NCBI GenBank assembly: GCA_963930775.1
Contig: OZ005694.1
Span: forward strand, 10,680,899-10,744,898
Direction of reading: 5' to 3'
Length of the DNA stretch: 64,000 nt
Source of the DNA: Cliona cf. orientalis
Taxonomy: Eukaryota; Porifera; Demospongiae; Clionaida; Clionaidae
Position numbers and translations under genes: made by a program
The notes under the pieces: model-generated
Seen by the model: the letters and a program-made list of their open reading frames with translations, nothing else
Told to the model about the DNA's origin: nothing
The model's database searches: none
Shown here: piece after piece, positions 4,159 through 64,000 of the stretch
Position numbering within the stretch: position 1 is the first letter of the stretch
How the letters are laid out: each line of letters begins with the position of its first letter

Positions 4159-6687
4159 CTAGGGAGAGTTCTCTGTTGAATGTGCAGTGGCTTCAGTGAA
4201 GCTTCCCCCTCCATTTTGTTTGTAAGTTCTGAGCACAATGGTGGATTGACTGCTGCTCCGAGACGCTGGACCACTCGTGGAGGCGGCAGACTTCGACGAC
4301 GTCTTCTCCACGCTTCTCTTGCAAGTGAGGCAATCCAGGTAGAGCTTTAGAGTCTTCTTGGTCAGGAGAAAAGCCACAAATATGACAAATCCCTGGGTGC
4401 TATTGAAGATGATGAAGAGATACCATGCCCAGCTTGTGCCAGCTAGAATGGCGATGAACCCAAACACCCAAGTGAGGCCTGTGGTGCAAAAGATGGCGAT
4501 ATTAAGGTGGAGGAAAGGAGTGGCGTCTTCACGGTTTAGTTTGGCTTGCGATCGAGAAGCCATGAAGATATAGATAGACACTACGATAAACATGACGAGG
4601 TTGAAGGAAATGGAGAGAACTAGAGGAACGACGAAAGCAACGACAGCAGACTCGAGGTGATTTATCCAACAGCTGCCCAAGGATCCGTCGGCTAGAACTC
4701 CATAGAGCACCAGTCCTTGCGTGGTGAAATTGACCACTATGGACACTGCAGTGATTAACAGGGGCAACCCCCAGCCAGCGAGCATGTATGAGAAGAGCAG
4801 CTGTAGCTTATCGCGCCTCGAGTCCATGATCAGCTTCTTAGCTCGGTGAAACTTTCGCACCACTTCCAGTGACATTATGCTCATCCATGCAAACTGTGCC
4901 AGAAAGAAGAAATGCAGAGCTACAGCGACTGACGTACAGAGCTCGATGATTGGATAAGCTTGCGATATCGGACCACCGACTAGAATCAGTAGATTCGTCA
5001 CAATGTTTGCAAAGGCTAGATTCATCAAGATCTTGCTTGGTAGCGAGCGCAGTTCCTTGAAGAGACTGTAGGTTATCAATACTAAAGCACTACCGATAAC
5101 GGATAGAGAGCACCCTACGTAGGTGAGCTCAAGGTAGCCAGCTGGGTAAGAAAAAATGGTGGTGTTCACCTGAACAGTGGTGACGTTATCAGGACAGACG
5201 AGAGGCAGTCCATCAGCGCTGTAGCCGAGAATCTCCATCTCTTCACCATTCACAAGAACGGTCTCATTTGTGAGTAAAGTGAATTCCGTGTCATTCAGGG
5301 CCACTAGCTCCGTGGGGCAGTCGAGGAAAAATCCACTCCCACTGCCTGAACCATTAGTGGACTGATTTACACTAGTCAGTGGTTGAGAAAAACACTTTCC
5401 GTCCCGCGATACGAAATTCTGTGGGCAGAGGGTGTCTCGACAGTCTAGACCAACCGGCGCCTGGCCCTCGGGGCAGCTCACCGTAACGTTCCGAGTCTGT
5501 GTGTCCGTTCGTACAGTCACATGACCACCGCCAAAATTACTCAGAGTGATCGTGAAGGGTATACCCCCTTGAGTAGGAGGGGGTTCATCGGGTGCCACAA
5601 TATTAACAATATTATCAACTAAGGGGAACAGGGGATTTGTCAGATTAAAATCACCAATATCTGGTGGATCCTCTGTGGGGAGAGGAGGAGGAGTAGGTGG
5701 AGCTTCGGTCGTAGGTGGGGAGATATTTCGTATACACTGAATCGGTACCACATTGACAGCCCTGGATGTCTCCCGCAGGCACTGTCTGAGAAACACTTGA
5801 TTGCATTCTGCGCACGCGCGATTGCGAAACAAGAGAGCGATCACCAAACTTTCATCAAAACTGAACGGCTTCGGCACACTAGCTACTTGGAGGTCGTACG
5901 AACCATTTACACAGTCGTTAGCGAGTCCTTCGTACTCTTCTTGCGATATCCCGAGGATCTCGGTTATGTTGAGACAAGTGTCGACAACGTTGGGATAGCA
6001 TGCTCTAGGCACGTGGGGCAAGGTCCGTGGGTACTGGTATGAACAAGGGCTGCACTGTTCTTGAAAGAGGCTCGTATCGAGCTCAGAAAATGGAACGGTT
6101 TCGAGTAGCTCGTAGAGATATTCAGTGCACACAATGCTCGCCTCCCACGAGACTGTGTTCTCCACGCGATTGCATAGAGCACAGTGCTGATTTCTGTAGA
6201 CAATCCCCGATACGGGGTCAGTAACTGGAGGCAAGTCTCGAGATTCTGAGAGACAACCGTCAAGCACCATTTGTCCACTCTCACCGACCTCAGAAAGCCA
6301 GTCTGAAGAACATCCGGACACCATCCAAAATGACTCATTCGCCACGACGTCTATCGTGCTGTCAAGGTAGATGCTCTGACAAGTGAATTGGAGTTCGTTG
6401 AGGCGTGAGTCTCCGAGTGGCGTTCCTTCGCAGGCAGCTGACCTTCGCGTGGACGACGGTCCACAGCAGTCGCCGTACACTTCGCAGTCCGTGTCGCATT
6501 TACACCGTCCCCCGTCTCTCTCGATGTTGTATGCCCGACATTCTCTTCCGCAGGAGCGGCAGTTGGGCTCTAGCCCTCTCGTTGGCTCCTCTGTCGTCAC
6601 ATCTTCGAGAGTGACGGCTGAAGAAGATCGGAGAGAAGGAGAGATCAGTAGAATTATTATAAATCCAAAAAATAGAGAAATCTTCAT
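4159..6687 (-). CDS. SMB-domain 7TM receptor, copy 2 (7TM-2), complete
   Basis: A single-exon gene of 842 aa. Residues 1-24 are a signal peptide. Residues about 43-75 form a somatomedin-B domain with cysteines at 43, 46, 50, 62, 64, 68, 74 and 75 (CKCDTDC...DCC signature). A Cys-rich region with CxxC pairs follows, then a Pro/Thr-rich linker, a second Cys-rich part and a Gly/Ser stretch. Seven hydrophobic segments occupy roughly residues 525-785, with class B/adhesion-like signatures (GLTWVFGF in TM6, FNSTQGFVIF in TM7). The Ser/Thr-rich tail is about 55 residues. I see no GPS autoproteolysis site before TM1, so it is not a typical adhesion GPCR. It sits head-to-head with receptor A, about 700 bp apart. 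Likely a plasma-membrane receptor; ligand and G protein are unknown. This is the reference copy for the other two. Confidence 0.85.
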   Translation of the reverse strand: MKISLFFGFIIILLISPSLRSSSAVTLEDVTTEEPTRGLEPNCRSCGRECRAYNIERDGGRCKCDTDCEVYGDCCGPSSTRRSAACEGTPLGDSRLNELQFTCQSIYLDSTIDVVANESFWMVSGCSSDWLSEVGESGQMVLDGCLSESRDLPPVTDPVSGIVYRNQHCALCNRVENTVSWEASIVCTEYLYELLETVPFSELDTSLFQEQCSPCSYQYPRTLPHVPRACYPNVVDTCLNITEILGISQEEYEGLANDCVNGSYDLQVASVPKPFSFDESLVIALLFRNRACAECNQVFLRQCLRETSRAVNVVPIQCIRNISPPTTEAPPTPPPLPTEDPPDIGDFNLTNPLFPLVDNIVNIVAPDEPPPTQGGIPFTITLSNFGGGHVTVRTDTQTRNVTVSCPEGQAPVGLDCRDTLCPQNFVSRDGKCFSQPLTSVNQSTNGSGSGSGFFLDCPTELVALNDTEFTLLTNETVLVNGEEMEILGYSADGLPLVCPDNVTTVQVNTTIFSYPAGYLELTYVGCSLSVIGSALVLITYSLFKELRSLPSKILMNLAFANIVTNLLILVGGPISQAYPIIELCTSVAVALHFFFLAQFAWMSIMSLEVVRKFHRAKKLIMDSRRDKLQLLFSYMLAGWGLPLLITAVSIVVNFTTQGLVLYGVLADGSLGSCWINHLESAVVAFVVPLVLSISFNLVMFIVVSIYIFMASRSQAKLNREDATPFLHLNIAIFCTTGLTWVFGFIAILAGTSWAWYLFIIFNSTQGFVIFVAFLLTKKTLKLYLDCLTCKRSVEKTSSKSAASTSGPASRSSSQSTIVLRTYKQNGGGSFTEATAHSTENSP

Positions 6688-7387
6688 CTTGAATTGGTAG
6701 TGAACCTGTGAGTGTTCTTGTCCCTTTTTAGCGAGTTCAATTAATACTAAAATCGTGAGAAATGAACGAAGCTGTCAAACATGTGCAAAAAGTAATTTGA
6801 ACGCCCACGCATTCCTACCTCCGAGCTCCGCCCACTCGTAGCGGGGAAGTGTAGAGCGGATATTATTATGATATGACCGCAACGGAAGGAAGACGGCTTC
6901 AGGCTAGGGATCATGGCGCGGCGTGATCAAAGGTTTCTTCACATTTGGCATGAGAACCGGAGGTGGACGATTACAATTTACACATGCTCAATCACTCCAA
7001 TGTCAGTCATTTTGGAGCAAAGCTGGTACCAAACGATTCATCGTGCTATTTATAGCATAGATGCCTGCCCGAAATAATATTATTTTACTGCATCGCTAGC
7101 TAGCTACATCAGTATAGCCCTCTATGATACCAAATATGGTTAATACAGCTATCATTAGAGTCAGAGTATGAATGTTGTTTCAATCTGATAACCACCAGGA
7201 ATCAGTGGGATGCAACTAGCATTAATAGCTATAAAAAAAGTGGGCCCAGCAGGGGTGGCTAGGTATCTGGGTAGGTGCATATTAAACCAAGGGGCGGCAC
7301 AGAAGTTGAAGTTTTGAGCCAGGTAAGAGAGCTGATAATTGCTAGCTGTTTAAGTTAATTTATATGCAACTCCATACAAAATTTTAG
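6688..7387 (+). promoter_or_regulatory. Divergent promoter region of 7TM-2 and receptor A, with TATA box and 5'UTR intron
   Basis: This region separates two divergent genes. On the plus strand TATAAAAAAA lies at 7230-7239, followed by a GTAAGA donor at 7323 and an acceptor ...ATTTTAG ending at 7387, six bases before the receptor A ATG. That implies a non-coding first exon and a 65 bp 5'UTR intron. The same TATA and intron layout recurs before receptor F (TATA at 35779). Bases 6935-7030 are also conserved at 2440-2570 and 35465-35590. No separate TATA was identified for the 7TM gene. Confidence 0.55.
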
Positions 7388-7393
7388 AGAACA

Positions 7394-10176
7394 ATGAAGT
7401 TGCTTGGATGTCTTGCCATTTTTCTCTCTACTTTTGCTATCATGGATGCTGCAGTAGCTCCGAATGATTACTCTATTACATGCCGCACTGACTTTCAATA
7501 TCGAGCAGCCCATGACTGGATCCCCTATGCAAATGATACCAGCAGTGGCACTTGGAAGGTTCTCATCGATCAGTATGACTACCAAAGTGTCATAGGATTT
7601 GGAGGAGTTTGGAAAGCAATAGATGCTGACACGCAGCCAACTCCTGATGGAAGAATTGTATGTTTTATATAGTCATTAGCTGGCATAATTAAAATGAATA
7701 TTTAATTTCAGTTTACCCAAGGCAGTGGTGGGACATGCTCCTATCAAATTAGAGTAAGTGATTCTTATCAGAATCCAAATTCAAGCAACTGGGTCTTCAC
7801 TCAAGCTATTGACTACATTGATGCTGTCGAACTGATTGTTAATGCTACTGTCAGATTCTCTGCTTGCATTCAGCGTCGTGTGGACATCCCACCTTGTACA
7901 AATGACTATGTGATTTTGCACCGCTATGATACTAATACACAGAGTGAGATCGAGAGGGTCAAACCAACCAACTATCAGCCTTATAAAGACACCTCAGAGA
8001 GCTCTCGTCTTGAGCAAGATCAAGTCAATACCAATGATGATACCACCATCATCGGTAGATTCCGTCGACCTGCAAACTTCAACTATACCTACCTTGGACT
8101 TCAGGACATCGGCACTCATGGGATCGTCAGTCGAATTTTTATGTACTATGAAGTGTGCCCAGGAAGAGTTGAAGGACTCGTGACCTACCCTGAGGTACCT
8201 CACCCTGGAACATTACCTGGAGCATCATCACAAATCACTAGGCTTGCTCACTGTGCTGAGCACTCACATAATACCACAAGCTTAGAAACCTACTCTTACC
8301 AAGATGGACGATGTGACCAGAGTGCTACATGTGACTGTGATGCAGGGTACGAGGAAAATGGCCATCAGTGTGTTGGTACGTAAGTTAAACATTCAACCTG
8401 ATCTTGTGAATAAGTTGAAGTTTATATATAACTCATGCATTATAGCTTGTACGGCTGGACAGTATCGAAGTGCATTGAACAGCAGTTGTGTTGATTGCCC
8501 AGCCAATAGCAATTCTCTGTCAGCAGCTTCAGAGACTTGTAGCTGTAATGCAGGTTACTATAGAGTGAATGGCTCTGAGTCTGAAGGAATTGGAGTGGAA
8601 TGCACAGGTAAGAATTGATAATAATTGAAGAATTACATGATTCAGCTCACTAATTCTTCAGCTCCTCCTCCTCCTATTAGCAGCTGTGATGTAAGTCAGC
8701 ACTTTGATACTGCTATTAATATTCAGTGGAGAGCTCCAGCAAACTGTGGAGGGCGAAGCGATTGCTACTATCAGATAAAGATAAATAGTAGTTCTCCAGA
8801 AGATTATTCACCAGTATTCCGTCCCAATGCTCAAGAAACGTTCACTGTTAATAATTTAGAACCAGATATGACTTATGCAATCACAGTTAGCATTCATAAT
8901 GGGGTCAGTGACCAGGATTCAGAAAATGCTAGAAACAGAGAATGTGTCATTGTAGCCAAAACCATGCAAGGAAGTAAGTATGAGCGATCCTTACAGTCTA
9001 ACCCCCATAGCTGTTTAATATTATTTAACAATTTTTGTTCAGGTGTGTTTATGCTTGGAGAGGTAACCTCCTTTAACAATTCAGCAGTTCTCCTTGAAGA
9101 TATTGACTCTGAAAGTCCACTGACATGCACAACAGCTCACACTAGCTGCTGTACGGAAGGACATGACACACAGGGCAGATTCTTCTACCCAGATGGCAGC
9201 CCTGTTCTAACCCAGTCTCAAGCATCATCATCTTCACAGAGCTTTTATGTCACTCAAAATCAAGGTTCAATCAGTCTCATACGGCAAGATGGTGATCCTC
9301 CTCCCCTGGGTAGCTACCGCTGTGAGGTTCCGGATGGTGGAGGGAGTTTACAAAATCTTTACATCCGAATTGGTGAGACAGTACATAGCATGACATTGTG
9401 TGTGTATGTGCATATAATATAGTATTGTGTATGTGTCTATGTGTATGTGTGCATAATTCAGTGACCTATACTTATAATTAGGGGTATATAGGTAAATTAT
9501 GCTAATTTTTTGGCCCATAATGCTATTCTCAAATGCTCAAAAAATCCTAATAATGCTCCAGAAGTGCACCTATAATTCCCAATACATCGCCCATTATGCT
9601 CAAGCTGAACCGACAATAATGTTAATAAAAACCGATGTGAGACATGAGAAGACTCAGTTACACTATCATAGAGTGCAGCCATTTCAATTTTACATGTGTT
9701 CAGATTCGAAAGTTTATACCAGCTGATTGATCAACCCTTTACGAGTCCATAATAAGTAGTCCAGACGTTGTGACAAAGGTCAATTAACAGGTCCTTGCAA
9801 TTGTGTGCCCTAAAATTCTCAAAATTATGCCAGTTGATGCCTATAATGCTAGCATAATTCTCAAATGCTTACACACACCTATTATGCTCAAAATTATGCC
9901 AGCATATTTTACCTACCCCCTACTTATAATATTATTTTTTCAGGCACAATCACCAGAGATGCCCTAATCAGCTCGCCTACCAGCACTGGAGCGTCATGTG
10001 TAAACTTGTACGTATTCATTGGAGTTGTTGTGGGTGTAGCCGTGCTTGCTGTCATTGTTATCTCACTGATCTCTGTCTGTCTCTGTGTGATTTGCATAAA
10101 GAAAAAGGAGGTCTCTGTGGAATTGTATGAGCAGGAAACAAAAAAACCAGTGGCCTTGAAAATGGATGAATTTTAA
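7394..10176 (+). CDS. Receptor A: kinase-less Eph-receptor-like type I membrane protein
   Basis: Six coding exons join in frame to 654 aa: 7394-7657, 7712-8375, 8446-8607, 8662-8973, 9043-9372, 9944-10176, all with GT-AG borders. Signal peptide about 1-20. Residues about 25-225 resemble the Eph ligand-binding domain (SNWVFTQAIDY, YLGLQDIG, IFMYYEVCPGRVEGL, then CDCDAGYEENGHQC as in Eph CNAGYEE). Exon 3 is a Cys-rich Ephrin_rec_like module. Exon 4 is one fibronectin III domain. Exon 5 is an Ig-like domain (YPDG...GSYRCEVPD). Exon 6 gives one transmembrane helix and a 25-residue tail (KKKEVSVELYEQE...). Known Eph receptors have two FN3 domains, then a TM, kinase and SAM; here the second FN3, kinase and SAM are absent and the stop is genuine. 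The 571 bp last intron carries an inserted repeat. Probably a cell-surface binding protein; the ligand is unknown. Confidence 0.85.
9450..9935. repeat. Repeat insertion inside the last intron of receptor A
   Basis: The equivalent intron is about 70-320 bp in other copies but 571 bp here. The extra DNA is bounded by related inverted AT-rich motifs (ATTATGCTAATTTTTTGGC near the left, ATTATGCCAGCATAT near the right) and repeats AATGCTCAAA-like words. Similar words occur at 31590-31770. It is probably a non-autonomous DNA element. No coding region was seen. Confidence 0.45.
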
Positions 10177-10732: not shown

Positions 10733-12248
10733 TCAGTTCTTGCTCAAGTCCATGGTAACCTCGGATGGATCCAGGGTTGGCATCTCAGTAAACTCAAGCT
10801 GGGGATCACCAGTCAGCTTGCGAGCCAGCCACAGAAATGGCTTCTCAATGTTGTGTTTGCTCTTGGCACTGATATCGCAATACTGTGTTAATATAGGAGG
10901 GGAGGGAGAGGGGAAGAGAGAGAAAGAGAGGGGCGTGTGTTAATCGTAATTCGCATTGTATACTATTATTATACCAATGTAATACCTGCAAGTTGTTTTT
11001 CCTGTGGTATGTGACCTGTCTTTTCCTGTCCTTGATGTCGTCGACCTTATTCCCACAAAGCACAATGGGTATGTCTCCGCACACACGTTCTAGATCGCGA
11101 TGCCACTCCGGGACGTTCTTGTAGGTTGACATAGCCGTCACATCAAACATGATGATGGCACACTGCGCCTGGATGTAGTAGCCATCTCTCAGCCCCCCAA
11201 ACTTCTCCTGACCAGCCGTGTCCCATACGTTGAACTTGATGGGTCCCCTGCTAGTGTGGAACACTATGGGCTGAACCTCAACACCAATCGTAGCTATAAT
11301 GTATGGTTAATGTGCAGTGTGATTGGCATGTAGTGATAGGTTCTATAAACTCTTGGTTTAAGTCTGATTCAATTGCATGAGTATAGCTAGCCGCTTAATC
11401 AGGATCAGAGGAGGTATTGATCACGGATTCTAACTAGAGCTCTATAGAGCGCATGCCCCGCACGCACATTGCATATTATCTATCGATCTACTTTTGTGTA
11501 TATGGGGGGGAAAAATACTGAGTAGAAATGCTGCTTGGTTGTATAGCTATAGGATTCCCGGTGATATCAGCCAAACAACCATTGACTCTCTCTGCACCAG
11601 ATTTAGACTAGGTAGATATAGGCCTAGGTATCTTACATTCTGATTTGATAGGCATTGATAGCAAGCAGCCAAACATATGCCACTAGCACTATTGACGACC
11701 TTTACCAGTTCACAATGCGCATTAGCAGAAAGCGCAAGCATTGTGGATAGGCGTGGGTGTCGATAGGCGCATGCGCGCAGAGGTGGGCAAACCGCTGCAC
11801 TGGTGGACGATTGTTGGACGGGCACTGTTTGCAGACTTATTGTATTTGGTTCAATGTTCATGCCACTAAAATTATTGAACCTAACGTTTTTGATCGCGGC
11901 TTTAGCTTTCGTGATATATCGTGGCATGAACGTTGAACCAAATAATATTATATGACCATGGACTAGCAGTCACGAGCAAAATTTTATGTAAGCTTACTAA
12001 TAGCTATATACACATCATCGGCTTACGCAAGTACTGCCTTTTCCCTGCAGCTGCAGTGATGTAGCTCTCAACAAATGTTGTTTTACCAGTGCCACCTTCG
12101 CCGACTAGCACCAGCTGTGTTGTGTATAATAAAAGAAGTTAATGATAATATGTCATTATTGTTGTTATTAGCTCTGATCACAAAAATATTATCTGCTAAT
12201 TACTATAATTGCTAGGTGCAAGCTTACTTTGAAAGTCTCTGCTTCCAT
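10733..12248 (-). CDS. Ran-1: Ran-like small GTPase without acidic C-terminal tail
   Basis: Four exons on the minus strand: 12248-12228, 12114-12027, 11293-10986, 10882-10733. They join in frame to 188 aa starting [15 protein letters not shown]. All G motifs are visible: P-loop GEGGTGKTT, switch [17 protein letters not shown] with catalytic Gln, NKVD, and [35 protein letters not shown] and [14 protein letters not shown] are near-identical to animal Ran, the nuclear-transport GTPase. Ran is usually about 216 aa and ends in an acidic DEDDDL helix; this copy ends [12 protein letters not shown], so that tail is missing. Without it, effector exchange with RanBP1-type proteins would be expected to differ (inference). 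It is convergent with receptor A. It could be a neofunctionalised paralog; the canonical Ran gene is not in this window. Confidence 0.85.
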
Positions 12249-12814: not shown

Positions 12815-13533
12815 GACCCACACTAGGTGGAAGGACATGACACACCGGGCAGATTCTTCTACCCAGATGGCAGCCCTGTTCAAACCCAGTCTCAAGCATC
12901 ATCATCTTCACAGAGCTTTTATATCACTCAAAATCAAGGTTCAATCCTGAGTCTCATACGGCAAGATGGTGATCCTCCTTGCTACCGCTGTGAGGTTCTG
13001 GATGGTGGAGGGAGTTCACAAAATCTATACATCCGAATTGATGAGACAGTGCTTAGCATGACATTGTGTGTATGTTGATATAATATTATAATATTGTGTA
13101 TGTGTGTCTATGTGTAGCTATGTGCGCATATTATAGTATACTTCAGTGACCTATAATTATTAATTATTTTTAATTTGATTAAAGTGACAGTGAACCGCAT
13201 GACTTTAATGCAACACAAATTTCTTAATTTACGATAATCGAGGTTGAACTGTACTATAATAATTATTAGTTACAAACCAATAATATCGTGTTTTTGTCAG
13301 GCACAATCACCAGAGATGCCCTAATCAGCTCGCCTACCAGCACTGGAGCGTCATGTGTAAACTTGTACATATTCATAGGAGTTGTTGTGGGTGTAGCTGT
13401 GCTTGCTGCCATTGTTATCTCACTGATCTCTATCTGTCTCTGCGTGATTTGCATAAAGAAAAAGAAGGTCACTGTGGAATTGTACGAACAGGAAACAAAA
13501 AAACCAGCGACCTTGAAAATGAATGAATTTTAA
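12815..13533 (+). pseudogene. Receptor fragment B: Ig-like exon and transmembrane exon
   Basis: Exon 5 is 5'-truncated (about 12815-13036) and encodes GHDTPGRFFYPDG...YRCEVLDGGG with a small in-frame deletion. Its donor reads ATGAGA where intact copies have GTGAGA, so it cannot splice normally. Exon 6 (13301-13533) is intact: acceptor TTTTTGTCAG, TM helix, tail KKKVTVELYEQE. Exons 1-4 are absent. It lies between Ran-1 and Ran-2 and is the remnant of a receptor from an extra module. Confidence 0.8.
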
Positions 13534-17483: not shown

Positions 17484-18964
17484 TTTACCTTGCCAGATAC
17501 TACTAATTCGATCACAGTTAGCGTTCATAACGGAGTCAGTGACCAGGATTCAGAAAACGCTAGAAACAGAGAATGTATGATTGTAGCCAAAACCATGCAA
17601 GGCAGTAAGTATGATCAATCCAATAGTCTAACCTCCCATGATAGCTGTTTATCGATATCGTATTATTTGATAGCAATTTTTGTTCAGGTCACAGGTGTGT
17701 GGACGGGTCACCTCCTTTAACAATTCAGCAGTTCTCCTTGAACATAATAATATTGACTCTGAAAGTCCACCGACGTGCACAACAGCTCACACTAGCTGTT
17801 GTATGGAAGCACATGACACACCGGGCAGATTCTTCTACCCAGATGGCAGCCCTGTCCAAACCCAGTCTCAAGCATCATCATCTTCATAGAGCTTTTATAT
17901 CACTCAAAATCAAGGTTCAATCAGTCTCATACGGCAAGATGGTGATCCTCCTCCCCTGGGTAGCTACCGCTGTGAGGTTCCGGATGGTGGAGGGAGTTTA
18001 CAAAATCTGTACATCCGAATTGGTGAGACAGTGCTCAGCATGGCATTGTGTGTATGTACGTGTGTATCTATGCATTATTATAATAATATTATTATAATAT
18101 TGTGTATGTGTGTCTATGTGTATGTGTGCATATTATAGTATACTTCAGTGACCTATAATTATTAATTTTTAATTTGATTAAAGTGACAGTGAACCGCATG
18201 ACTTTAATGCAACACAAATTTCTTAATTTACAATAATCGAGGTTGAACTGTACTATAATTAGTTACAAACCAATATTGTGTTTTTTCAGGCACAATCACC
18301 AGAGATGCCCTAAGGCCACTCCAAATGGGAATATAGTTTCCCGTCCTGGCTTCCTGCATTTTACATGCGGGCGGGCGCCCATTACCATTAACCATTATTA
18401 TGAATATCATTATGAGCACAATGAATATAATTAAAATTCTTGATCCCACAACTGTGCACGTGCATACAAGGAGACGATGCTAGCCCTATAGGCGCTAGGC
18501 CTAGTCAGCGCTACCGCTAGCTAGCTAGCGCGCGCTGATAGCAGCACCTTGACAAGTAGGGGCATTTATATTATCATGAAAGCAAGATAAGTACACACAT
18601 CACCGTTGGTTGCTAGCTTCAAATTCATGAAGCAGTACTGCTCCTAGCTAGCTACAACCATAAATAATGGACATAATAGTCAAATGAAGCGGTAGCATCA
18701 GAGAGAGGCGGGCGGTGGACGGGAAACTACGTTCTCATTTGGAGTGGCCTAATCAGCTCGCCTACCAGCACTCGTCATGTGTAAACTTGTACGTATTCAT
18801 TGGAGTTGTTGTGGGTGTAGCTGTGCTTCAATGCTGCCATTGTTATCTCACTGATCTCTGCCTGTCTCTGCGTGATTTGCATAAAGAAAAAGAAGGTCAT
18901 TGTGGAATTGTACAAGCAGAAAACAAAAATTAAACCAGCGGCCATGAAAATGGATGAACTTTAA
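17484..18964 (+). pseudogene. Receptor fragment C: FN3 end, Ig-like and TM exons, disrupted
   Basis: The end of exon 4 (17484-17604) keeps its GTAAGT donor. Exon 5 (17695-18022) has an altered start and an in-frame TAG in the Ser run at about 17886. Exon 6 (18290-18964) is split by a 436 bp Harbinger-like element and has a further 4 bp insertion after GTAGCTGTGCTT that breaks the TM frame. Exons 1-3 are absent and no Ran copy follows. It is clearly a pseudogene. Confidence 0.85.
18314..18749. mobile_element. Harbinger-like MITE in exon 6 of receptor C
   Basis: 436 bp with 33 bp terminal inverted repeats (30 of 33 positions match) beginning GGCCACTCCAAATG. It is flanked by the 3 bp direct repeat TAA (18311-18313 and 18750-18752), and intact copies show a single TAA at this point. 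A TWA duplication and GGCC-type TIR are typical of PIF/Harbinger elements. It has no transposase. Confidence 0.8.
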
Positions 18965-19755: not shown

Positions 19756-22372
19756 ATGAAGTTACTTGGATTTCTTTCCACTTTTCTCTCTATTTTTGCT
19801 GTCATGGACGCAGTAGCTCCAAATGATTTCTCTATTACATGCCGCACTGACTTTCAATATCGAGCGGCCCACGACTGGATCCCCTATGCAAACGACACCA
19901 GCAGTGGCACTTGGAAGGTTCTCATCGATCAGTATGACTACCAAAGTATCTTAGGATTTGGAGGAGCTTGGAAAGCAATAGATGCTGATACACAGCTCCC
20001 TCTTGATGGAATAACTGTACGTTTTATATAGTATCCTTGGCTGATAAAATTATGTTAATCAGTGATTAACCGTTTATTTTAGTTTACCCAAGGCAGTGGT
20101 GGGACATGTTCCTATCAAATTAGAGTATTTAATTCTTATCGGAATTCAAATTCAAACAACTGGGTCTTCACTCAAGCTATTGACTACCTTGATGCTGTTG
20201 AGCTGATTGTCAATGCCACTGTCAGATTCTCAGCTTGCATTCAGCGTCGTGTGGACAACCCACCTTGTAGAAACGACTATGTGATTCTGCATCGCTATGA
20301 TACCAATACACTGAGTGAGACCGAGAGGATCAATCCAACCAATTATCAGCCTTATAAAGGTACCTCAGAGAGCTCCCGTCTTGAGCAAGATCAAGTCAAT
20401 ACTAATGATGATACCACCATCATCGAGAGATTCCATCGACCTGCAAACTTCAACTACACTTACCTTGGACTTCAGGACATTGGCACTACTGGGATCGTTG
20501 ATCGAATTTTTATGTACTATGAAGTGTGCCCAGGAAGAGTTGAAGGACTCGTGACCTACCCTGAGGTACCTCACCCTGGAACATTACCTGGAGCATCATC
20601 ACGAACCACTAGGCTTGCTCACTGTGCTGAGCATTCACATAATATCACAAGCTTGGAAACCTACTCTTACCAAGATGGACGATGTGACCAGAGTGTTACA
20701 TGCGACTGTGATGCAGGGTATGAGGAAAATGGTCGTCAGTGTTTGGGTAAGCAAGTCATACATTGTACTATTGTACTCATAAAGCAATTCATTTTTATTC
20801 AGCTTGTACTCCTGGCAAATATCGAACCATACCACAAAACAGCAGTTGTGTTGATTGCCCAGCCAACAGCAATTCCTTGTCGGCAGCATCAGAATGTAGC
20901 TGTAGTGCAGGTTACTACAGAGTGAGTGGCTCCGAAGGAATTGGAGTGGGATGTACAGGTTGGAATTTTACTTTTAATATTATACATTATCATAATATCC
21001 GTGCTAGCATGATAAGACCTGTTCTTTTTTTAGTTCCCCCTCCTCCTATTAGTAACTGTGACATAAGTCAGCAATTTGACACTGCTATTACTATTCGGTG
21101 GAGATCTCCAGCAAACTGTGGAGGGCGAAGCGATTGCTACTATCAGATAAAAATAAACAATGATTCTCCAAAGCAGCATTCACCAGTTTTTCGTCCCAAT
21201 AATCAAGAAACATTCACTGTTGAAGATTTACAGCCAGATACTACTTATTCAATCAAAGTTAGCATTCACAACGGAGTCAGTGGCCAGGATCCTGACAATG
21301 CTGAAAGCAGAGAATGTGTGATTGTAGCCACAACCTTACAAGGAAGTAAGTAAGATCAATCCAAACTATTTTTAGCGATTCAGCTACCCAAGGGAATTTT
21401 TTGATGTATCATGCAAGAATCAATTAAATTTTATCTGAGGTGTTCTAGCTCATTGAATCTTTCTCTCCATCATGCAAGGGTATACTCTTGTCCTTTATCT
21501 ACCTTACTTTTCATACATAGGTGTGTTCATGTTTGGTGGAATCACCTATCCCAACAACACAGCAGTCATCTTAGAGCACATTGGTGAAGAGGATAAGAAC
21601 TCATTTATCTGCACCACTTCCTATAGTAGCTGCTGCCAAACTGGCGTACAAGGAAATTTTTATTACCCGAATGGAGAACCTGTTTTATCTCTCTCCGAAA
21701 CATCTTCACCAAGACGCCTCTACCAAACTCATAACCATGGCTCAATCAGCCTTAAGCAAAAATCTGGTGAAACGTTTACTCCGTTGGGGAGATATCGATG
21801 TGAAATACCAGACGGTAGAGGGACCTTGCAAAACTTATTCTTCACAATTGGTGAGGCTACTAACTTTATTTAATTCTGCCGTGTGTCAGTTGTAGCTAGC
21901 TACCTGCTTTGTGTCTACAGGAACTATTCAAGAACGTGAATGTCCAACTATCCCACCTAAAGTAATCATTCCAGGTTCAGTAATAATATATTAAGCTATG
22001 CTTTGTTGCAATAATTACTACTTGAATATTATCGGTCGCACAGATATCTACTTTGAACTGAATGGCGAGATACTCACCAACAACAGCGCAGTAGACCTGA
22101 ACGACATCGGAGAGGGTGAGGGAGCACTTCTGTGCAAGACTAACCATCCTAACTGCTGCGGAACTCGACCCAATCGCTTTGGCCAGTTCTTCTACCCTAA
22201 TGGCCGTCAAGTTCCCATCAGAGTTCAAAATGAAGGCTTTTATCGCAACAGAGGGGAGCAGAGGATCCGCCTCAATCGAAAGGAAGGAGTGATTTCTCCA
22301 ATTGGCGAGTTTCGATGTGAGATTCCCGACGCCAATGGAGTGATGAGGAGTGTCTACATTACTATCAATTAA
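19756..22372 (+). CDS. Receptor D: Eph-like ectodomain with two Ig-like domains, apparently secreted
   Basis: Seven exons join in frame to 701 aa: 19756-20016, 20083-20746, 20803-20958, 21034-21345, 21521-21850, 21921-21974, 22044-22372. The order is signal peptide, Eph-type ligand-binding domain (YLGLQDIG, VCPGRVEGL), CDCDAGYEENG and Cys-rich module, FN3, Ig-like domain 1, a short linker exon, Ig-like domain 2 (FYPNGRQVP...GEFRCEIPD). The frame ends YITIN-stop exactly where other copies have a splice donor. A complete TM exon lies 454 bp downstream (22827-23062) but no donor joins it, so the product should be soluble unless an unseen splice is used. The intron 3 donor is GTTGGA, weak but GT. 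It has its own TATA-type promoter. No Ran gene follows. Confidence 0.8.
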
Positions 22373-22826
22373 TTAACTATTAAAACTGATGTGCATGGTG
22401 GAGTATATATAGCTATAGCTAGAATTACGTGTGTGAGCTAAAAATTATATCATGAACTGACCCATCCAATTTGTGATGTATATTTTTTCCCCTGTATTCT
22501 ATATAGTCTAAAAAATTAATATGAAAAAAATTGAAGGATGAAGTAGGGATGGCAGTGGCGAAAAGCACACAGACAAGATTTGTAGCTAGGGAATAGTCAC
22601 ATCCGGAGATATAGAGAAGGAGAGGTCACTGGTCAGTAATTATTGTATAATCCTGAAAGGTGGAGAACTTGTGAGTGTTCTTAGCGAGTTCAATTGTGTG
22701 TGTGTGTGTGTGTGTGTGTGTCTGTGCATATAATATAAGGTACGGTGTGTGTATGTGTCTATGTGTATGTGTGCATATTATAGTATACTTCAGTGACATA
22801 TACTTATAATAATTAATGTTTTTCAG
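22373..22826. other. Former last intron of receptor D, with a (TG)n run
   Basis: Contains a GT microsatellite (about 22694-22720) and GTGTATGTGTCTATG words typical of the last intron of every receptor copy. The expected donor at about 22372 is replaced by an AATTAATTAAC stretch containing the stop codon. Confidence 0.5.
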
Positions 22827-23062
22827 GCACAATCACCAGAGATGCCTTAATCAGCTCGCCCACCAGCACTGGAGCGTCATGTGTAAACTTGTACGTATTC
22901 ATTGGAGTTGTTGTGGGTGTAGCTGTGCTTGCTGCCATTATTATCACACTGATCTCTGTCTGTCTCTGTGTGATTTGCATGAAGAAGAAGAAGATCACTA
23001 TGGAATTGTACGAGCAGGAGACAAAAATTAAACCAGCGGCCATGAAAATGGATGAACTTTAA
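22827..23062 (+). pseudogene. Orphan transmembrane exon downstream of receptor D
   Basis: 236 bp with a good acceptor (TTTTTCAG), open frame, one TM helix and the conserved tail (KKKKITMELYEQE...KMDEL). It equals exon 6 of receptor A. It is orphaned because the preceding exon runs into a stop instead of a donor. It could still be used by an alternative transcript; RNA would decide. Confidence 0.65.
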
Positions 23063-23124
23063 TTTGATACTATGCATAGTGATAATATTATTAGTACCCG
23101 TTGATGTAACAGTTAGACTTGTAT

Positions 23125-24290
23125 AGAGCTCCAGCAAACTGTGGAGGGTGAAGCGATTAAAATTGCTACTATCAGATTCTCCAAAGCGGCATTCACCTGT
23201 ATTCCGTCCCAATAATAAAGAAACCTTTACTATTGAAAATTTACAGCCAGATACAGCTTATTCAATCCAGTTAGTATTCATAATGGAGTCAGTGACCAGG
23301 ACCCTGACAATGCTAGACTAAGAGAATGTGTCATTGTAATCACAACCTTACAAGGAAGTATGGTCAATCCAAACTATTTTTAGCGATTCATTACCTAAGG
23401 GGGTTTTTTCATGTACCATGCCAAGAATCAGTTAAATTGTATCTTAATTTAATTTTTGCTCTAGCTCACTACCTATATTATAACTAGTGCTACTTTTTGC
23501 ACATAGTTGTGCTCATGCTTGGTGGAATCACCTATCCCAACAACACAGCAGTCATCTTAGAGCACATCGGCAAAGAAGATAAGAGCTCCTTGATATGTAC
23601 AACTTCTCAATATTATAGTCACTGCTGCCAAACTGGTGTGCGAGGAAGGTTTTATTACCCAAATGGTGTTGTTTCAATCAGCATTCAGCATAGAAATAGA
23701 ATAGAACTTATACAGAAAACCTACCAGAGTTTCAGAACATTCTAGAATGACTTAACATCTTACATCAACTGTTCACAGACAGGTTCACAGACAAACACCA
23801 TCACACATAACAACATTCACACACAAACAGCATCACCATAATACCCTAATCAACATTGCACAAATCAGACTGAAGATTCTAGAACACTATTGCACAAATT
23901 ACTTAATTACCACCTTACAATAATAGCTAACTCTACTAATTAACAGTACAAGAGTCACAGTTTCCAACAAACAGAATACCTGTTTATCTCTCTCCAAAGT
24001 GTGTCTTCACCAGGACAGAGCCTTTACCAGACTCGTAATCATGGCTCAATCAGCCTTAAGCAAAAACATGGTGAAGCATTTCCTCCATTGGGGAGGTATC
24101 GATGTGAAATACCAGATGGTAGAGGGTGCACCTTAATTGCAAAATTTATTCATCGGTCGGTGAGGCCACTAATTTTGTTGTAATAATATTATGTCAGTTG
24201 TAGCTACCTGCTTTGTTCCTATAGATAGTATTTAGGAACATGAATGCCCAACTATATATCCCACCTGAAGTAACCATTCCAGGTTCTATA
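23125..24290 (+). pseudogene. Receptor fragment E: D-type FN3, Ig-like and linker exons, decayed
   Basis: An FN3 exon relic (about 23125-23357) contains indels and a TAA in the NNKE stretch. A D-type Ig exon starts at 23507, is interrupted after 23666 by about 300 bp of unrelated DNA, resumes near 23975 and ends at 24159. A linker exon relic follows (about 24226-24284, PPEVTIPG). It resembles receptor D more than A. Exons 1-3 and TM are missing. It abuts the 3' flank of 7TM-3. Confidence 0.75.
23667..23974. repeat. ~300 bp insertion inside the Ig exon of receptor E
   Basis: The Ig-domain sequence breaks after TACCCAAATGG and continues with ATACCTGTTTATCTCTCTCC. The intervening DNA has no match to other receptor copies. 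It is A/C-rich with repeated ACAAACA words and no clear inverted ends, so the class is unknown. Confidence 0.45.
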
Positions 24291-35945: not shown

Positions 35946-38476
35946 ATAAAGTTGCTTGGATGTCTTGCCATTTTTCTCTCTACTTTTGCTGTCATGGATG
36001 CTGCAGTAGCTCCGAATGATTACTCTATTACATGCCGCACTGACTTTCAGTATCGAGCGGCCCATGACTGGATCCCCTATGCAAACGACACCAGCAGCGG
36101 CACTTGGAAGGTTCTCATCGATCAGTATGACTACCAAAGTATCGATCTTAGGATTTGGAGGAGCTTGGAAAGCAATAGATGCTGACATGCAGCCAACTCC
36201 TGATGGAAGAACTGTACGTTTTATATAGTCATTAGCTGGCATAATTGAAATGAATTTTTAATTTCAGTTTACCCAAGGCAGTGGTGGGACATGCTCCTCA
36301 GGGGCGGATCCAGAGCTTCCAACAAGGGGGGTGCTAATTTGAATATTTGCGCGCGAAGCGCGCGCGAAAAATTTGACCACGCCCCTTTTTTACGAAACCA
36401 CACCCACTTAATTGCCGCGAAGCGAAGCAACAACCAGAAAACGTGGAGAATTTAGTGGAACTCGAGTTTTTGTCCCTACAGACAGGTTTATCACTCAGAG
36501 TTTATAGCTAAATGTATGTCAGATCAAGGTTTTTTGCTAGAAGGGGGGTGCTAGAGCTAGCTATGTCCATAGAAGTCTGTATGTTGTCTTGGCTGGAGGG
36601 GGGGTGCTTGAGCACCCCAAGCACCCCCCCTGTATCCGCCCCTGCTCCTATCAAATTAATTCTTATCAGAATCCAAATTCAAACAACTGGGTCTTCACTC
36701 AAGCTATTGACTACCTTGATGCTATCGAGCTGATTGTTAATGCCACTGTCAGATTCTCTAGTTGTATTGCACGTCGTACAGACAGCCCACCTTGTACAAA
36801 TGACTTTGTGATTCTGCATCACTATGATACTAATACACTGAATGAGACTGAGAGGATCAAACCAGCCAACTACCAGCCTTACAACGGTACCTCAGAAAGC
36901 TCCCGTCTTGAGCAAGATCAAGTCAATACCAATGATGATACTACCATCATCAGTAGATTCCGTCGACCTGCAAACTTCAACTACACCTACCTTGGACTTC
37001 AGGACATCGGCACTCATGGGATCGTCAGTCGAATTTTTATATACTATGAAGTGTGCCCAGGAAGAGTTGAAGGACTCGTGACCTACCCTGAGGTACCTCA
37101 CCCTGGAACATTACCTGGAGCATTATCACGAACCACTAGGTTTGCTCGCTGTGCTGAGCATTCACATAATACCACAAGCTTGGAAACCTACTCTCACCAA
37201 GATGGACAATGTAACCAGAGTGTTACATGTGACTGTGATGCAGGGTACGAGGAAAATGGTCGTCAGTGTGTTGGTAAGTTAAAAATTTTGTGGCTAATTA
37301 AAAGTTTACTTTGTACTCACTGTAGCTTGTACGCCTGGAAAGTATCGGAGCACACTGAATAGCAGTTGTGTTGATTGCCCAGCCAACAGCGATTCCCTGT
37401 CAGCAGCTTCAGGGAGTTGTAGCTGTAATGCAGATCACTACAGAGTGAGTGGCTCTGAAGGAATTGGAATGGAATGCACAGGTTAGAATTGATAATAATA
37501 TTTGAAGATTTATATGATACATCTCATTAATTCTTCAGCTTCCCCTCCTCCTATTAGCAGCTGTGATGTAAGTCAGCCCTTTGACACTGCTGTTACTATT
37601 GAGTGGAGATCTCCAGCAAACTGTGGAGGGCGAAGCGATTGCTACTATCAGATAAGAATAAACAATGGGTCTCCAGAAGATTATTCACATTTTCCATCCT
37701 AATAGTCAAGAAAATTTCACTGTTGAAAGTTTACAACCAGACACGACTTATTCAATCACAGTTAGCGTTCACAATGGGGTCAGTGACCAGGATTCAGAAA
37801 ACGCTAGAAACAGAGAATGTATGATTGTAGCCAAAACCATGCAGGGAAGTAAGTATGAGCGATCCTTACAGTCTAACCTCCATAGCTGTTTATCACTGAC
37901 GTGTACAACAGCTCACACTAACTGTTGTACGGAAGGACATGACACACAGGGCAGATTCTTCTACCCAGATGGCAGCCCTGTTCAAACCCAGTCTCAAGCA
38001 TCATCAGCTTCACAGAGCTTTTATGTTACTCAAAATTAAGGTTCAATCAGTCTCATACGGCAAGATGGTGATCCTCCTCCCCTGGGTAGCTACCGCTGTG
38101 AGGTTCCGGATGGTGGAGGGAGTTTACAAAATCTGTACATCCGAATTGGTATGTGTGTCTGTGCATAATATTATAATATGTGTGTGAATATTTAAAAATT
38201 TCGTCAGTGACCTACACAGTAACTTATAATATTCTTTCAGGCACAATCACCAGAGAGGCCCTAATCAGCTCGTCTACCAGCACTGGAGCGTCATGTGTAA
38301 ACTTGTACATATTCATTGGAGTTGTCGTGGGTGTAGCTGTGCTTGCTGCCATTGTTATCACACTGATCTCTGTCTGTCTCTGCGTGATTTGCATAAAGAA
38401 AAAGAAGATCGCTGTGGAATTGTACGAGCAGGAAACAAAAATTAAACCAGCGGCCATGAAAATGGATGAACTTTAA
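35946..38476 (+). pseudogene. Receptor F: A-type Eph-like receptor, inactivated
   Basis: All six exons can be placed: about 35946-36213, 36268-37273, 37326-37481, 37539-37848, 37898-38148, 38241-38476. The start codon is ATA instead of ATG. Exon 1 has a 4 bp insertion. Exon 2 contains a 346 bp hAT-like element plus a 9 bp deletion. Exon 4 has indels giving stops near 37702. The start of exon 5 with its acceptor is deleted, and exon 5 has a TAA in CAAAATTAAGG near 38037. Exon 6 (TM and VELYEQE tail) is intact. The domain order is otherwise that of receptor A. Confidence 0.9.
36299..36644. mobile_element. 346 bp hAT-like element in exon 2 of receptor F
   Basis: The ends are CAGGGGCGGAT... and ...ATCCGCCCCTG, with 5 bp CTCCT on both sides (36294-36298 and 36645-36649). 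The interior has GCGCGCGAAGCGCGCGC and GGGGGGTGC motifs shared with the 344 bp element at 44244-44587. The end sequence is typical of hAT elements; the 5 bp duplication is shorter than the usual 8 bp. No transposase is present. Confidence 0.75.
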
Positions 38477-52615: not shown

Positions 52616-52655
52616 ATGTGCTCTACAGCTCTAGTTAATAACAATTTTTGTTCAG

Positions 52656-53542
52656 GTGTGTTTATGCTTGGAGCGGTGATCTCCTTTAACAATTCAGCAG
52701 CTCTCCTTGAGGATATTGACTCTGAAAATCCACTGACGTGTACAACAGCTCACACTAACTGTTGTACGGAAGGACATGACACACAGGGCAGATTCTTCTA
52801 CCCAGATGGCAGCCCTATTCAAACCCAGTCTCAAGCTTCATCATCATCACAGAGCTTTTATGTCACTCAAAATCAAGGTTCAATCAGTCTCATACGGCAA
52901 GATGGTGATCCTCCTCCCCTGGGTAGCTACCGCTGTGAGGTTCCAGATGGTGGAGGGAGTTTACAAAATCTGTACATCCGAATTGGTGAAACAGTGCTTA
53001 GCATGACATTGTGTGTGTACATGCATATAATATAATATTGTGTATGTGTGTCTATGTGTATGTGTGCATATTATACCGTAGATCTGGAAATATTCGTATC
53101 AAGAAACTTTCGTATGATAAATTTTCGTGTAAAAATATTTTCGTAGGAATGACCCCTTACCACATTAGCATTAATAGTGCTTGCTAATTATTTTCGTAAG
53201 ATTAATTTTCGCAGCCGCCATTGACTATGAAAATATTTTTACAACGAAAATTTCCAGATTTACGGTAGTATACTTCAGTGACCTATACTTATAATATTAT
53301 TTTTTTCAGGCACAATCACCAGAGATGCCCTAATCAGCTCGCCTACCAGCACTGGAGTGTCATGTGTAAACTTGTACGTATTCATAGGAGTTGTTGTGGG
53401 TGTAGCCGTGCTTGCTGCCATTGTTATCTCACTGATCTCTATCTGTCTCTGCGTGATTTGCATAAAGAAAAAGAAGGTCACTGTGGAATTGTACGAGCAG
53501 GAAATAAAAAAACCAGCAACCTTGAAAATGAATGAATTTTAA
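52656..53542 (+). pseudogene. Receptor fragment H: intact Ig-like and TM exons only
   Basis: Exon 5 (52656-52985) and exon 6 (53310-53542) are fully open, with an acceptor (TTGTTCAG), donor (GTGAAA) and acceptor (TTTTTTCAG) in place, and encode the Ig-like domain, TM helix and VELYEQE tail. Exons 1-4 and a signal peptide are absent in the preceding 3 kb, so as a gene it is headless. It could only be expressed as a 3' cassette spliced from elsewhere. Confidence 0.8.
53077..53270. mobile_element. MITE in the last intron of receptor H
   Basis: The terminal inverted repeats are CCGTAGATCTGGAAATATTCG at the left and the inverse of CGAAAATTTCCAGATTTACGG at the right, flanked by TA. Interior words TTTTCGTA repeat. 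A partial copy lies at 17228-17272. Tc1/mariner-like by its TA target. Confidence 0.7.
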
Positions 53543-58725: not shown

Positions 58726-58971
58726 GTATAGCTACTCCAGCAAACAGTGGAGGGCCACGAAGCGATTGCGCAATTGCTACTATCTGACAATGGTTCTCCA
58801 AAAGAGCATTCACCAGTATATTCTGTCCCAGTACTCAAACTATCACTGTTGAAAATTTACAGCCAGATACAATTTATTCAATTGCAGTGAGCTTTCATAA
58901 TGGAGTCAGCGGCCAGGATTCAGACAAATTATTGATTCTGAAAGTCCACTGACGTGTACAACTTGAACAGC

Positions 58972-59049
58972 CAGTGGCGGGCCCAGGGGGCCTGTGTCCC
59001 CCCCCCCCCCCCCCCCCCCCCCACTGTCCAGCCTCTAGACCCGCCACTG
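58972..59049. mobile_element. 78 bp hAT-like MITE with poly-C centre
   Basis: The ends are CAGTGGCGGG and CCCGCCACTG; the centre is a 25 bp C run (58998-59022). Flanks AACAGC / ACAACAGC suggest a degenerate 8 bp duplication. A relic of the same right end occurs at about 62305-62333. Confidence 0.6.
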
Positions 59050-59072
59050 ACAACAGCTCACACTAGCTGAAA

Positions 59073-59421
59073 CAAGGGCGGAGAACAGGTAGCAAAAGTG
59101 GGGGGGCTCAGACCTTCGACTGTGTACTGTAATAACAGTTAGGCTGTGGGCATATGCCCACAGCCCGCCAAGGGGGGTCTGGGGGCATGCTCCCCCAGAA
59201 AATTTTGGAAATTTTGATTCTCTGAGAGTGTTTCTGATGCATTCTGGTGGCGGTTTTTTTGGCTGATTCAGTAGCTATTTTTACTCGAGCACTATTTTAC
59301 AAACACCCAGAACTATGTTACTGTAATTTATAGTATGGGCATGTGATAAAATGGGGGGAGGCTCAGCCCCCCTTGTTTCCAAAGTGGGGGGGCTGAAGCC
59401 CCCCCTGCCCCCGCCCCTGCT
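59073..59421. mobile_element. 349 bp hAT-like element
   Basis: The ends are CAAGGGCGG and CCGCCCCTG, with CTGAAA on both sides (59067-59072 and 59422-59427). The G-rich right part contains GGGGGGCTGAAGCCCCCC. Similar in size to the elements at 36299 and 44244. Confidence 0.65.
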
Positions 59422-60501
59422 GAAAGGACATGACACACAGGGCAGATTCTTCTATTCTAATATAGTATATACCCAGATGGCAGCCCTGGTTCAACTTGTG
59501 ACCCAGTCTCAAGCATCATCGTCTTCACAGAGCTTTTATATCACTCAAAATCAAGGTTCAATCAGTCTCATACGGCAAGATGGTGATCCTCCTCCCCTGG
59601 GTAGCTACCGCTGTGAGGTTCCTGATGGTGCAGGGAGTTCACAAAATCTGTACATCCGTATTGGTGAGACAGTGCTTAGCATGACATTGTGTGTGTATGC
59701 GCTAATATAATATGTGTATACATGTGTATGTGTGCATATTATTATAGTATACTTCAGTGACCTATACTTATATATAATGATATTATTTTTTTTCAGGCAC
59801 AATCACCAGAGATGCCCTAATCAGCTCGCCTACCAGCACTGGAGCGTCATGTGTAAACTTGTACGTATTCATTGGAGTTGTTGTGGGTGTAGCTGTGCTT
59901 GCTGTCATTGTTATCACACTGATCTCTGCCTGTCTCTGTGTGATTTGCATAAGGAAAAAGAAGGTCACTGTGGAAATGTACGAGCAGGAAACAAAAATTA
60001 AACCAGCGGCCATGAAAATGGATGAACTTTAATTTGATACTATGAGTAGTGATAATATTATTACCCTTTAATATAATCTCTGATGGAATAATAACTTGTT
60101 AAAAACTTCGATATATATACATGTATAGCAATTCTGGTATAGTAATAAAATTATTATGTCAAATCTCATGCAATTATAGCTATCCCACCATTTATGTGGT
60201 ACAACTGCATGGGAACCACTACAGTTATATATCCCTATAATATTATATTAAATCCCTGGTTACATGATACCATAGATGCTCTATGTATTAAAACAGTACA
60301 GCATAAAAGGGTCAATTCACAATGTATTTTTAGCTCACACAATATCATGTAATTCTGGCTATCTGTTCTACACTTAAATTACAAAAAATTCACCATAATA
60401 TTACTTCTTGACCATACAAAAAATTAACTTTTAACCTTTTTAAGAAAAAAAAAAATAATAACCCTATTTTATCGTGAACGGAATTCCATGCATGGCTATT
60501 G

Positions 60502-61970: not shown

Positions 61971-62333
61971 TTCAGCCTGATGAATAATTTGCGCTAGATA
62001 ACAACTTTCTTCTAATATTGCAAAGATCTGCGCTAGATGACAACTTTCTTGCCCTTAGTTGGTAAAGGTCGCCAAGGATCGCGAAAATGGCCATCGCCGC
62101 CCGGGCCGCGCCGGGGGGGCCGGAAACGCATGGTTATGCTACGTTGGGCCACACCTAGTACCTATTATGCAATTCTAATATTACGAATTGTATAATTAGA
62201 GCAGCACGTGTAGAATGGGTGTGGCTAACTTTTGCGCGCACACAAGTGCATGCAGTCTGTTCCCAACAGGTCTATTCCCAACAGGTCTTGGTCTAGCCTC
62301 GTACCCCCCACTGTCCAGCCTCTAGACCCGCCA
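61971..62333. other. Intergenic region upstream of Ran-5
   Basis: No gene was seen. Around 62095-62120 there is a very GC-rich stretch (CCGCCCGGGCCGCGCCGG), unusual for the window. Bases 62300-62333 are an hAT MITE end relic adjoining receptor J. Confidence 0.45.
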
Positions 62334-62968
62334 CAGACAACAGCTCACACTAGCTGGAAGGACATGATACACCAGGCAGATTCTTCTACCCAGATCAGTG
62401 GCCGGTTGAACCCTGTTCAAACTCAGTCTCAAGCATCATCATCTTCACAGAACTTTTATATCACTCAAAATCAAGGTTCATGATCAGTCGCATATGGCAA
62501 GATGGTGATCCTCCTCCCCTGGGCAGCTACCGCTGTGAGGTTCCGGAGTGGTGGAGGGAGTTTACACAATTTGTACATCCGTATTGGTGAGACAGTGCGG
62601 CTTAGCTGTGTGGTGTGTCTGTGCATAATATTATCAGTATGTATATATGTGTGTACATATTTAAAAAAAAATTGTAGTAGCTAGCTATACGTCAGTGATC
62701 TATACAGTAAGTTAACTTATAATATCCAGGCTTTCAGGCACAATCACCAGAGATGCCCTAATCAGCTTGCCTACCAGCACTGGAGTGTCATGTGTAAACT
62801 TGTACGTATTTATAGGAGTTGTGAGTGTAGCCGTGCTTGCTGCCATTGTTATCACACTGATCTCTGTCTGTCTCTGTGATTTGCATAAAGAAAAAGAAGG
62901 TCTCTGTGGAATTGTACGAGCAGGAAGCAAAAATTAAACCAGCAGCCATGAAAATGGATGAACTTTAA
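62334..62968 (+). pseudogene. Receptor fragment J: broken Ig-like and TM exons
   Basis: Exon 5 (about 62334-62586) has an inserted CAGTGGCCGGTTGAACC, a TGA in the QGS-stop stretch near 62481 and a 1 bp insertion in the GSYRCEV region, but keeps its GTGAGA donor. Exon 6 (62738-62968) has small deletions (3 bp in GVVVGV, 2 bp after CTCTGTG) that shift the frame after the TM helix. Exons 1-4 and any following Ran copy are absent. Confidence 0.85.
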
Positions 62969-63819: not shown

Positions 63820-64000
63820 ATGAAATTATTTGGATATCTTGCCATTTTTCTCTCTACTTTTGCTGTCATGGATGCAGTAGCTCAAATGATTTCTCTATTA
63901 CATGTCGCACTGACTTTCAATATCGAGCAGCCCACGACTGGATCCCCTATGCAAACGACACCAGCAGTGGCACTTGGAAGGTCCTCATTGATCAGTATGA
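63820..64000 (+). pseudogene. Receptor K: D-type receptor start with a 1 bp deletion, runs off the window
   Basis: ATG at 63820 starts a signal peptide (MKLFGYLAIFLSTFAVMDAVA). Directly after it GCTCCAAATG of receptor D reads GCTCAAATG, a 1 bp deletion that shifts the frame out of the Eph-type domain, although the following sequence (TTTCAATATCGAGC, GACTGGATCCCCTATGC) is otherwise intact. With the lost TATA box it is probably inactive. The rest lies beyond base 64000. Confidence 0.75.

Follow-up and report, generated by a model that had tools for sequence, protein, structure and literature searches.

The Eph-like cluster and its gene models

The window, i.e., the whole stretch of 64,000 nucleotides that was analysed, lies on contig C6 of a 217 Mb genome that is animal in its gene content, and carries Eph-like copies in tandem, of which only A and D are intact within it. 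Copy A occupies positions 7394-10176 on the + strand, where six exons bounded by GT-AG junctions join in frame into 654 aa, bearing out the join claimed in a preliminary description of the locus. Nine combinations of two donors were tried for this copy, and an early stop was absent in just one of them. The encoded order is a signal peptide, a ligand-binding domain (LBD), a Cys-rich region, a fibronectin type III domain (FN3), an Ig-like domain, a transmembrane (TM) helix and a cytoplasmic tail of 25 residues. As predicted from genomic DNA, the sole source of the gene models and terminal exons given here, copy A firmly reads as the intact outer half of an Eph-type receptor with an Ig-like domain and one membrane anchor, without a kinase.

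Copy A exon 1: 7394..7657, + strand, signal peptide and start of the LBD; in-frame join; 48% identity to P0001
Copy A exon 2: 7712..8375, + strand, remaining LBD and start of the Cys-rich region; Ephrin_lbd 5.3e-5, EphA4 ectodomain match
Copy A exon 3: 8446..8607, + strand, Eph-type Cys-rich module; aligns with EphA4
Copy A exon 4: 8662..8973, + strand, fibronectin type III domain; Pfam fn3 7.7e-8
Copy A exon 5: 9043..9372, + strand, Ig-like domain
Copy A exon 6: 9944..10176, + strand, stalk, TM helix, 25-residue tail and stop; hydropathy peak at 611-629

The remaining copies of the window range from intact to fragmentary:

Copy B, 3′ fragment: 12827..13533, + strand, partial Ig exon, TM exon, tail
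Copy C, damaged 3′ part: 17493..18961, + strand, FN3 end, Ig, TM, tail
Copy D, intact: 19756..23062, + strand, 652 aa; 0 frameshifts, 0 stops; tail ends MKMDEL-stop
Copy D exons 1-3: 19756-20016, 20083-20746, 20803-20958, + strand, GT donors and AG acceptors
Copy D exons 4-5 and TM exon: 21034-21345, 21521-21850, 22827-23062, + strand, GT/AG for exons 4-5
Degenerate FN3-Ig fragment behind copy D: 23122..24126, + strand
Copy F, damaged: 35946..38473, + strand, start codon ATA, frameshifts, stop; LBD and tail readable
Copy H, 3′ fragment: 52628..53542, + strand, Ig, TM, tail
Copy I, damaged 3′ fragment: 58737..60029, + strand, partial FN3, partial Ig, TM, tail
Copy J, frameshifted 3′ fragment: 62333..62962, + strand
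Copy K, start: 63820..64000, + strand, extends past the window; modelled exons damaged, second Ig-stop exon intact

Together with the copies Kb and M and a copy on C17, copies A and D are open across their modelled exons, M being not read to its end and the C17 copy being modelled from residue 6. Copies A, B, C, D, F, H and I have homologous tails, and this homology is a product of local duplication. A different short tail results in the C17 copy if reading simply continues through its TM exon, and in Kb the usual stop is gone and reading runs nine residues further.

Other genes share the window. Frames of a secretin-type 7TM receptor lie on the - strand at 4159-6774 (7tm_2 8.6e-30) and 24694-27079 (assigned by sequence similarity only), the former being head to head with copy A across a gap of about 0.6-0.7 kb. 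Ras-family GTPase pieces, Ran-like by eye, lie on the - strand behind copies A (10845-11306) and F (38967-39581), Pfam having been run on the first of the two only; their positions are suggestive of neighbouring genes having been duplicated together in blocks. LINE-type reverse transcriptase-like and Gypsy-type polyprotein-like frames (by eye) are found amid the Eph-like copies at 39843-42554 and 47170-51042 (- strand), and the open frame of a repeated unit at 15716-16555 is probably a minisatellite.

Alternative terminal exons

The single Ig-like domain of the preliminary description holds for copy A but not for D, K, Kb and M, in which a second Ig exon lies behind exon 5 and is terminated by a stop in 4/4 cases:

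Copy D alternative terminal exon: 22044..22372, + strand, second Ig-like domain and stop; acceptor CACAG, in frame after exon 5

Joining exon 5 to this Ig-stop exon is in frame with GT-AG borders in D, Kb and M, giving predicted products of 683, 683 and 684 aa without a TM helix. The TM exon is present behind the Ig-stop exon in D, Kb and the damaged K, while the position of the TM exon of M lies outside the sequence analysed. Because the Ig-stop exon stands ahead of the TM exon in D and Kb, secreted and membrane forms would both be encoded. Copy A and the C17 copy showed no Ig-stop exon.

Eph identity of the ectodomain

The ectodomain of copy A alone matched EphA4 at 9.4e-24, and a four-row ectodomain profile matched it at 1.5e-33; in that profile, which also served the search for relatives below, the C17 row ends in residues from a wrongly chosen exon. 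The ectodomain also aligned with EphA2 across the Cys-rich region. Since the Cys-rich and FN3 parts may supply much of these scores, the LBD was scored alone. Ephrin_lbd was the sole Pfam family matched by all five members (best 1.1e-6). The HMM search proposed in the preliminary description was borne out by Ephrin_lbd for the gene family and by fn3 (7.7e-8 in copy A); the LBD of copy A itself (5.3e-5), at 23.8 bits, falls below the curated cut-off of 27, and the Ig-like domain had no match. The damaged paralogues F and L exceed that cut-off with 31.9 and 31.6 bits. A profile of five LBDs alone found no PDB chain at E<=1, a result that speaks against an Eph LBD; aligned by hhalign with the LBDs of the genome's other clade, it scored an E of 2.5e-6 with a probability of 88.8. 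We take the LBD of the window family to be Eph-derived but diverged.

Eph LBDs conserve two disulphide pairs, which are C70-C188 and C105-C115 when numbered as in EphA2, according to the available part of Krishnan et al. (2019; PMC6485061). In the LBD alignment, copies A and D and the relative P0001 described below keep the C105-C115 pair and are without both partners of C70-C188, while a Calx-beta-type relative has the reverse pattern. Cys 30 and Cys 97 of copy A are also present in P0001 and may form a new disulphide pair.

Downstream of the LBD, copy A has a Cys-rich region that aligns with EphA4 and EphA2, although Ephrin_rec_like gave no match there at E<=1, and Pfam counts one FN3 rather than the two typical of Ephs. 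The Ig-like domain of exon 5 had no Pfam match; it was modelled at moderate confidence, and the model resembles Ig domains, NCAM2 being the best match, so that the modelled domain has the Ig beta-sandwich fold. By eye, C496 and C561 could be the Ig core Cys pair. The structure model of P0001 yielded no usable LBD fold (pLDDT about 30 in the LBD).

Relatives and LBD trees

In a profile search with four members, P0001 included, the sole full relative was P0001, a sequence of a public assembly set consisting of 1116 residues in a single frame of a 3565-base contig. It is 44% identical to copy A over 89% of the latter. Its order is LBD-Cys-FN3-Ig-sushi-Ig-sushi-Ig, and its Pfam scores are 14.4 bits for the LBD and 24.6 bits for fn3, both under their cut-offs, and 23.3 against 23.1 for Ephrin_rec_like. 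No TM was seen in this sequence, which stops immediately after its final Ig-like domain; this larger type of relative is apparently secreted. A counterpart within the same genome as the window is 77% identical over the first 307 residues and has 12 exons, with one apparent frameshift, located in a linker rich in proline, and a stop exactly at the P0001 end position; given these 12 exons, P0001 is probably transcript-derived. P0001 and its counterpart share their first four domains with copy A and differ by many extra modules. The Ig-TM-tail part, used as a protein query, retrieved no relative, hence the membrane form so far is without one outside the genome.

Own-genome searches located at least 17 LBD places, of which 15 entered the trees; C8:5.472M, with an internal stop, and the damaged K and L were omitted. 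When P0001 and 20 own-genome rows were placed in one tree, a 100/100 split separated two groups, and 12 of the own-genome rows grouped with the genome's Eph kinase gene. After addition of three vertebrate Ephs, the window clade was recovered at 100/99 and the vertebrates formed a third group. Identity of the vertebrate LBDs is 16-21% with A and P0001 and 27-32% with the two rows of the kinase clade that were compared. These trees are unrooted with long branches, which drew a warning from the tool; midpoint rooting cannot show vertebrate Ephs siding with the kinase clade. The proposal of a separate Eph-like, kinase-free surface family agrees with the 100/99 clade, which stands apart from both the kinase-Eph clade and the three vertebrate Ephs, and a distinct kinase-free Eph-like family is well supported.

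On the window side of the tree, the C6/C17 family is joined by the sushi type and by a Calx-beta-type gene region. In the latter, weak Calx-beta matches, both below the cut-off, were obtained in 2 of the 3 pieces tested. This region, possibly one gene (L013 2800-9900, continuing into L034), carries an LBD modelled with one frameshift, a Cys-rich region, an FN3, a classical Ig domain (4.3e-8) and more Ig-like exons, with no kinase match.

Kinase at the locus and elsewhere in the genome

Copy A ends with a stop after its short tail, and tyrosine kinase and SAM are both absent from it. Across the 88 kb cluster, searched on both strands, queries made of the genome's own Eph kinase and SAM had no match at E<=0.1, and the SAM query found solely its own locus when the cluster and 24 loci were searched. 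The null search rules out a kinase exon concealed downstream of copy A for the C6 cluster. The locus lacks a kinase.

The preliminary description further stated that kinase loss predates the expansion. The common tail does make the kinase-free state older than the local copies, most of which are damaged or partial duplicates, but loss itself is not shown by it, and trees that are unrooted with long branches are silent on it. In the window lineage, a kinase may have been lost or may never have been present.

Elsewhere in the genome, a juxtamembrane match (E 7.4e-5) led to Eph kinase exons on contig C8. Searched against PDB, this kinase matched EphB1 and EphA2 near 1e-92; the first row was a chain labelled EGFR (2.3e-113), with no single stretch passing, and lower rows included a reconstructed Src-Abl ancestor (3.2e-79) and ABL1 (4.7e-73). 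A SAM exon lies behind the kinase (7.2e-16) and an FN3 exon ahead of it (1.8e-5), with a TM exon between by eye. The kinase at C8:5.537-5.542M is about 17 kb away from an LBD at C8:5.521M. Their order and strand, plus the presence close to the kinase of exons for FN3, TM and the juxtamembrane part, make it very probable that both belong to one canonical Eph gene. A tyrosine recombinase-like long frame (by eye; L029 236-1843) lies between the LBD and kinase exons of that gene. A statement that no LBD gene of the genome has a kinase, drawn from about 7 kb of downstream sequence, was overturned by these kinase exons some 17 kb off. Hence kinase Ephs, with SAM, exist in this genome as separate genes.

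Exons at least 72% identical to the C8 kinase occur at at least three places on C8. For the LBD at C8:5.664M, about 17 kb of following sequence contained no kinase match, and behind the LBD at C1:0.652M kinase matches are on the other strand only. An own-genome search for ephrins, run without a positive control, gave no match.

Comparison with known Eph receptors

Eph signalling is generally regarded as kinase signalling. Copy A shares with the Eph kinases EphA2, EphA4 and EphB2 the LBD - Cys-rich - FN3 order and a significant ectodomain similarity. Unlike them, it has one FN3 instead of two and an Ig-like domain before the membrane, and it is without kinase, SAM and one of the LBD disulphide pairs.

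In the accessible part of Krishnan et al. (2019; PMC6485061), demosponge Ephs are divided into three LBD clades and one kinase clade, with many partial models that miss domains, and kinase-less models of sponges or choanoflagellates are termed partial, truncated or fragments. The sponge Ephs of that work have LBD, Cys-rich and fn3 in common with copy A. Unlike the partial models described there, the genes reported here are complete and kinase-free in genomic DNA. Vertebrate Ephs with a dead kinase and splice forms lacking the kinase (EphB6, EphA10) likewise present an Eph head without catalytic output; as far as the available part of PMC6993872 goes, these retain an inactive kinase or arise by splicing from Eph genes, whereas here the locus has no kinase match. 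Among the literature matches listed, covering titles and abstract openings with preprints and most subscription papers outside the scope, no report of a kinase-free sponge Eph family was found.

Proposed function, selection and alternatives

The reading that we favour, at an even chance of being right, is a kinase-free Eph-ectodomain family that shows or releases an Eph head for ligand capture or adhesion without forward kinase signalling. Use of the TM exon would place the Eph-type head on the cell surface, and use of the Ig-stop exon would release it. The head would bind a partner, ephrin-like or not, on neighbouring cells or matrix; the surface form would then capture ligand or hold cells together with no forward kinase signal, while surface receptors would face competition from the secreted form for the same partner. 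Ligand capture or adhesion is a proposed role, as are the decoy, adhesion and co-receptor roles put forward in the preliminary description. In a bolder form, which is rather unlikely, the family would be an old kinase-free Eph-ectodomain branch that split near or before the base of the animals and serves a recognition system of the sponges' own, with the last exon picking between membrane receptor and secreted decoy.

Selection was followed by pairwise point estimates of dN/dS. Values were 0.20-0.69 for exon 1 (highest in A-M, 0.69), 0.27-0.45 for the main LBD exon (10 pairs), 0.26-0.63 for the FN3 exon, 0.14-0.42 for the first Ig exon (Ig1) in four defined pairs, 0.20-0.57 for the second (Ig2) and 0.39-0.49 for the TM exon in two defined pairs. 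The Cys-rich exon was at 0.09-0.16 in 9 of 10 pairs (A-Kb, 0.56) and in most pairs ranked below every other exon. The pairwise dN/dS values gave no indication of diversifying selection. For Ig1, dS was saturated in six pairs; between the A-type and D-type Ig1 it is saturated, yet the adjoining exons differ little, which suggests exon exchange or old divergence of the two types.

Somewhat unlikely is a recognition or adhesion family with a non-ephrin partner, in which Eph head, FN3 and Ig would have been recruited for cell-cell or self/non-self recognition and tandem copies would supply variety. The tandem many-copy cluster with two Ig1 types, the missing Eph disulphide pair and the sushi, Ig and weak Calx-beta modules of the relatives all fit this explanation, and so does the LBD of five copies, where 9/20 sites vary in bin 161-180 and 2 to 7 sites in each of the remaining bins (21-240), as plain counts without a test. 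Pairwise dN/dS, with its maximum of 0.69 (exon 1, A-M), however, has no excess of amino-acid change.

In vertebrate Ephs, the Cys-rich region is a receptor-receptor contact. It is improbable, though conceivable, that the family acts as a co-receptor or cis-regulator, pairing through its Cys-rich region and FN3 with the genome's kinase Eph and tuning the clustering of the latter. The Eph kinase gene in the same genome and the low dN/dS of the Cys-rich exon in most pairs speak for such pairing, but the LBD clades are far apart and a secreted form needs no cis pairing.

That the copies are relics, i.e., truncated, decaying and functionless derivatives of a kinase Eph, is very improbable: B, C, F, H, I, J, K, L and the fragment behind D are indeed damaged or partial, but A, D, Kb, M and C17 are open in the modelled exons and dN/dS is <1 in all defined pairs. 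A mis-modelled gene, in which exon 6 would be just one alternative end and a kinase exon would follow downstream, is hardly tenable, for although the genome's Eph kinase gene seems long-introned (LBD to kinase exons, about 17 kb), the 88 kb cluster has a kinase or SAM match on neither strand, and directly behind copy A come an opposite-strand gene and then more copies.

Under the favoured reading of a kinase-free family for ligand capture or adhesion, the presence of an Eph kinase gene elsewhere in the genome means that Eph-type recognition may work in this animal without signalling of the Eph type. Complete kinase-free Eph-head genes next to an Eph kinase gene in one genome suggest that, in early-branching animals, ligand recognition can be uncoupled from kinase output. 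One head in a soluble and a membrane-bound version would also offer a natural way to test Eph heads without forward signalling.

Kinase-free LBD genes of the other clade

Kinase-free LBD genes also occur in the other clade, at C4:10225602-10231672 (L018) and C4:10123648 (L010), with TM and tyrosine-rich tails. In one C4 gene, clean splice junctions lead from the LBD exon to a Cys-rich part, a TM and a tail in which YYxxV/I is repeated four times, and the next LBD gene follows closely. Another gene of this clade has an LBD, a Cys-rich region, a TM and a long tyrosine-bearing tail, and is followed by a transporter-like gene (by eye). The tail motifs of the L018 and L010 genes (EEVYYATV-type repeats; YVNI, YELF and YLHV) resemble the docking tails of immune-type receptors, and these tyrosines could serve as SH2 docking sites.
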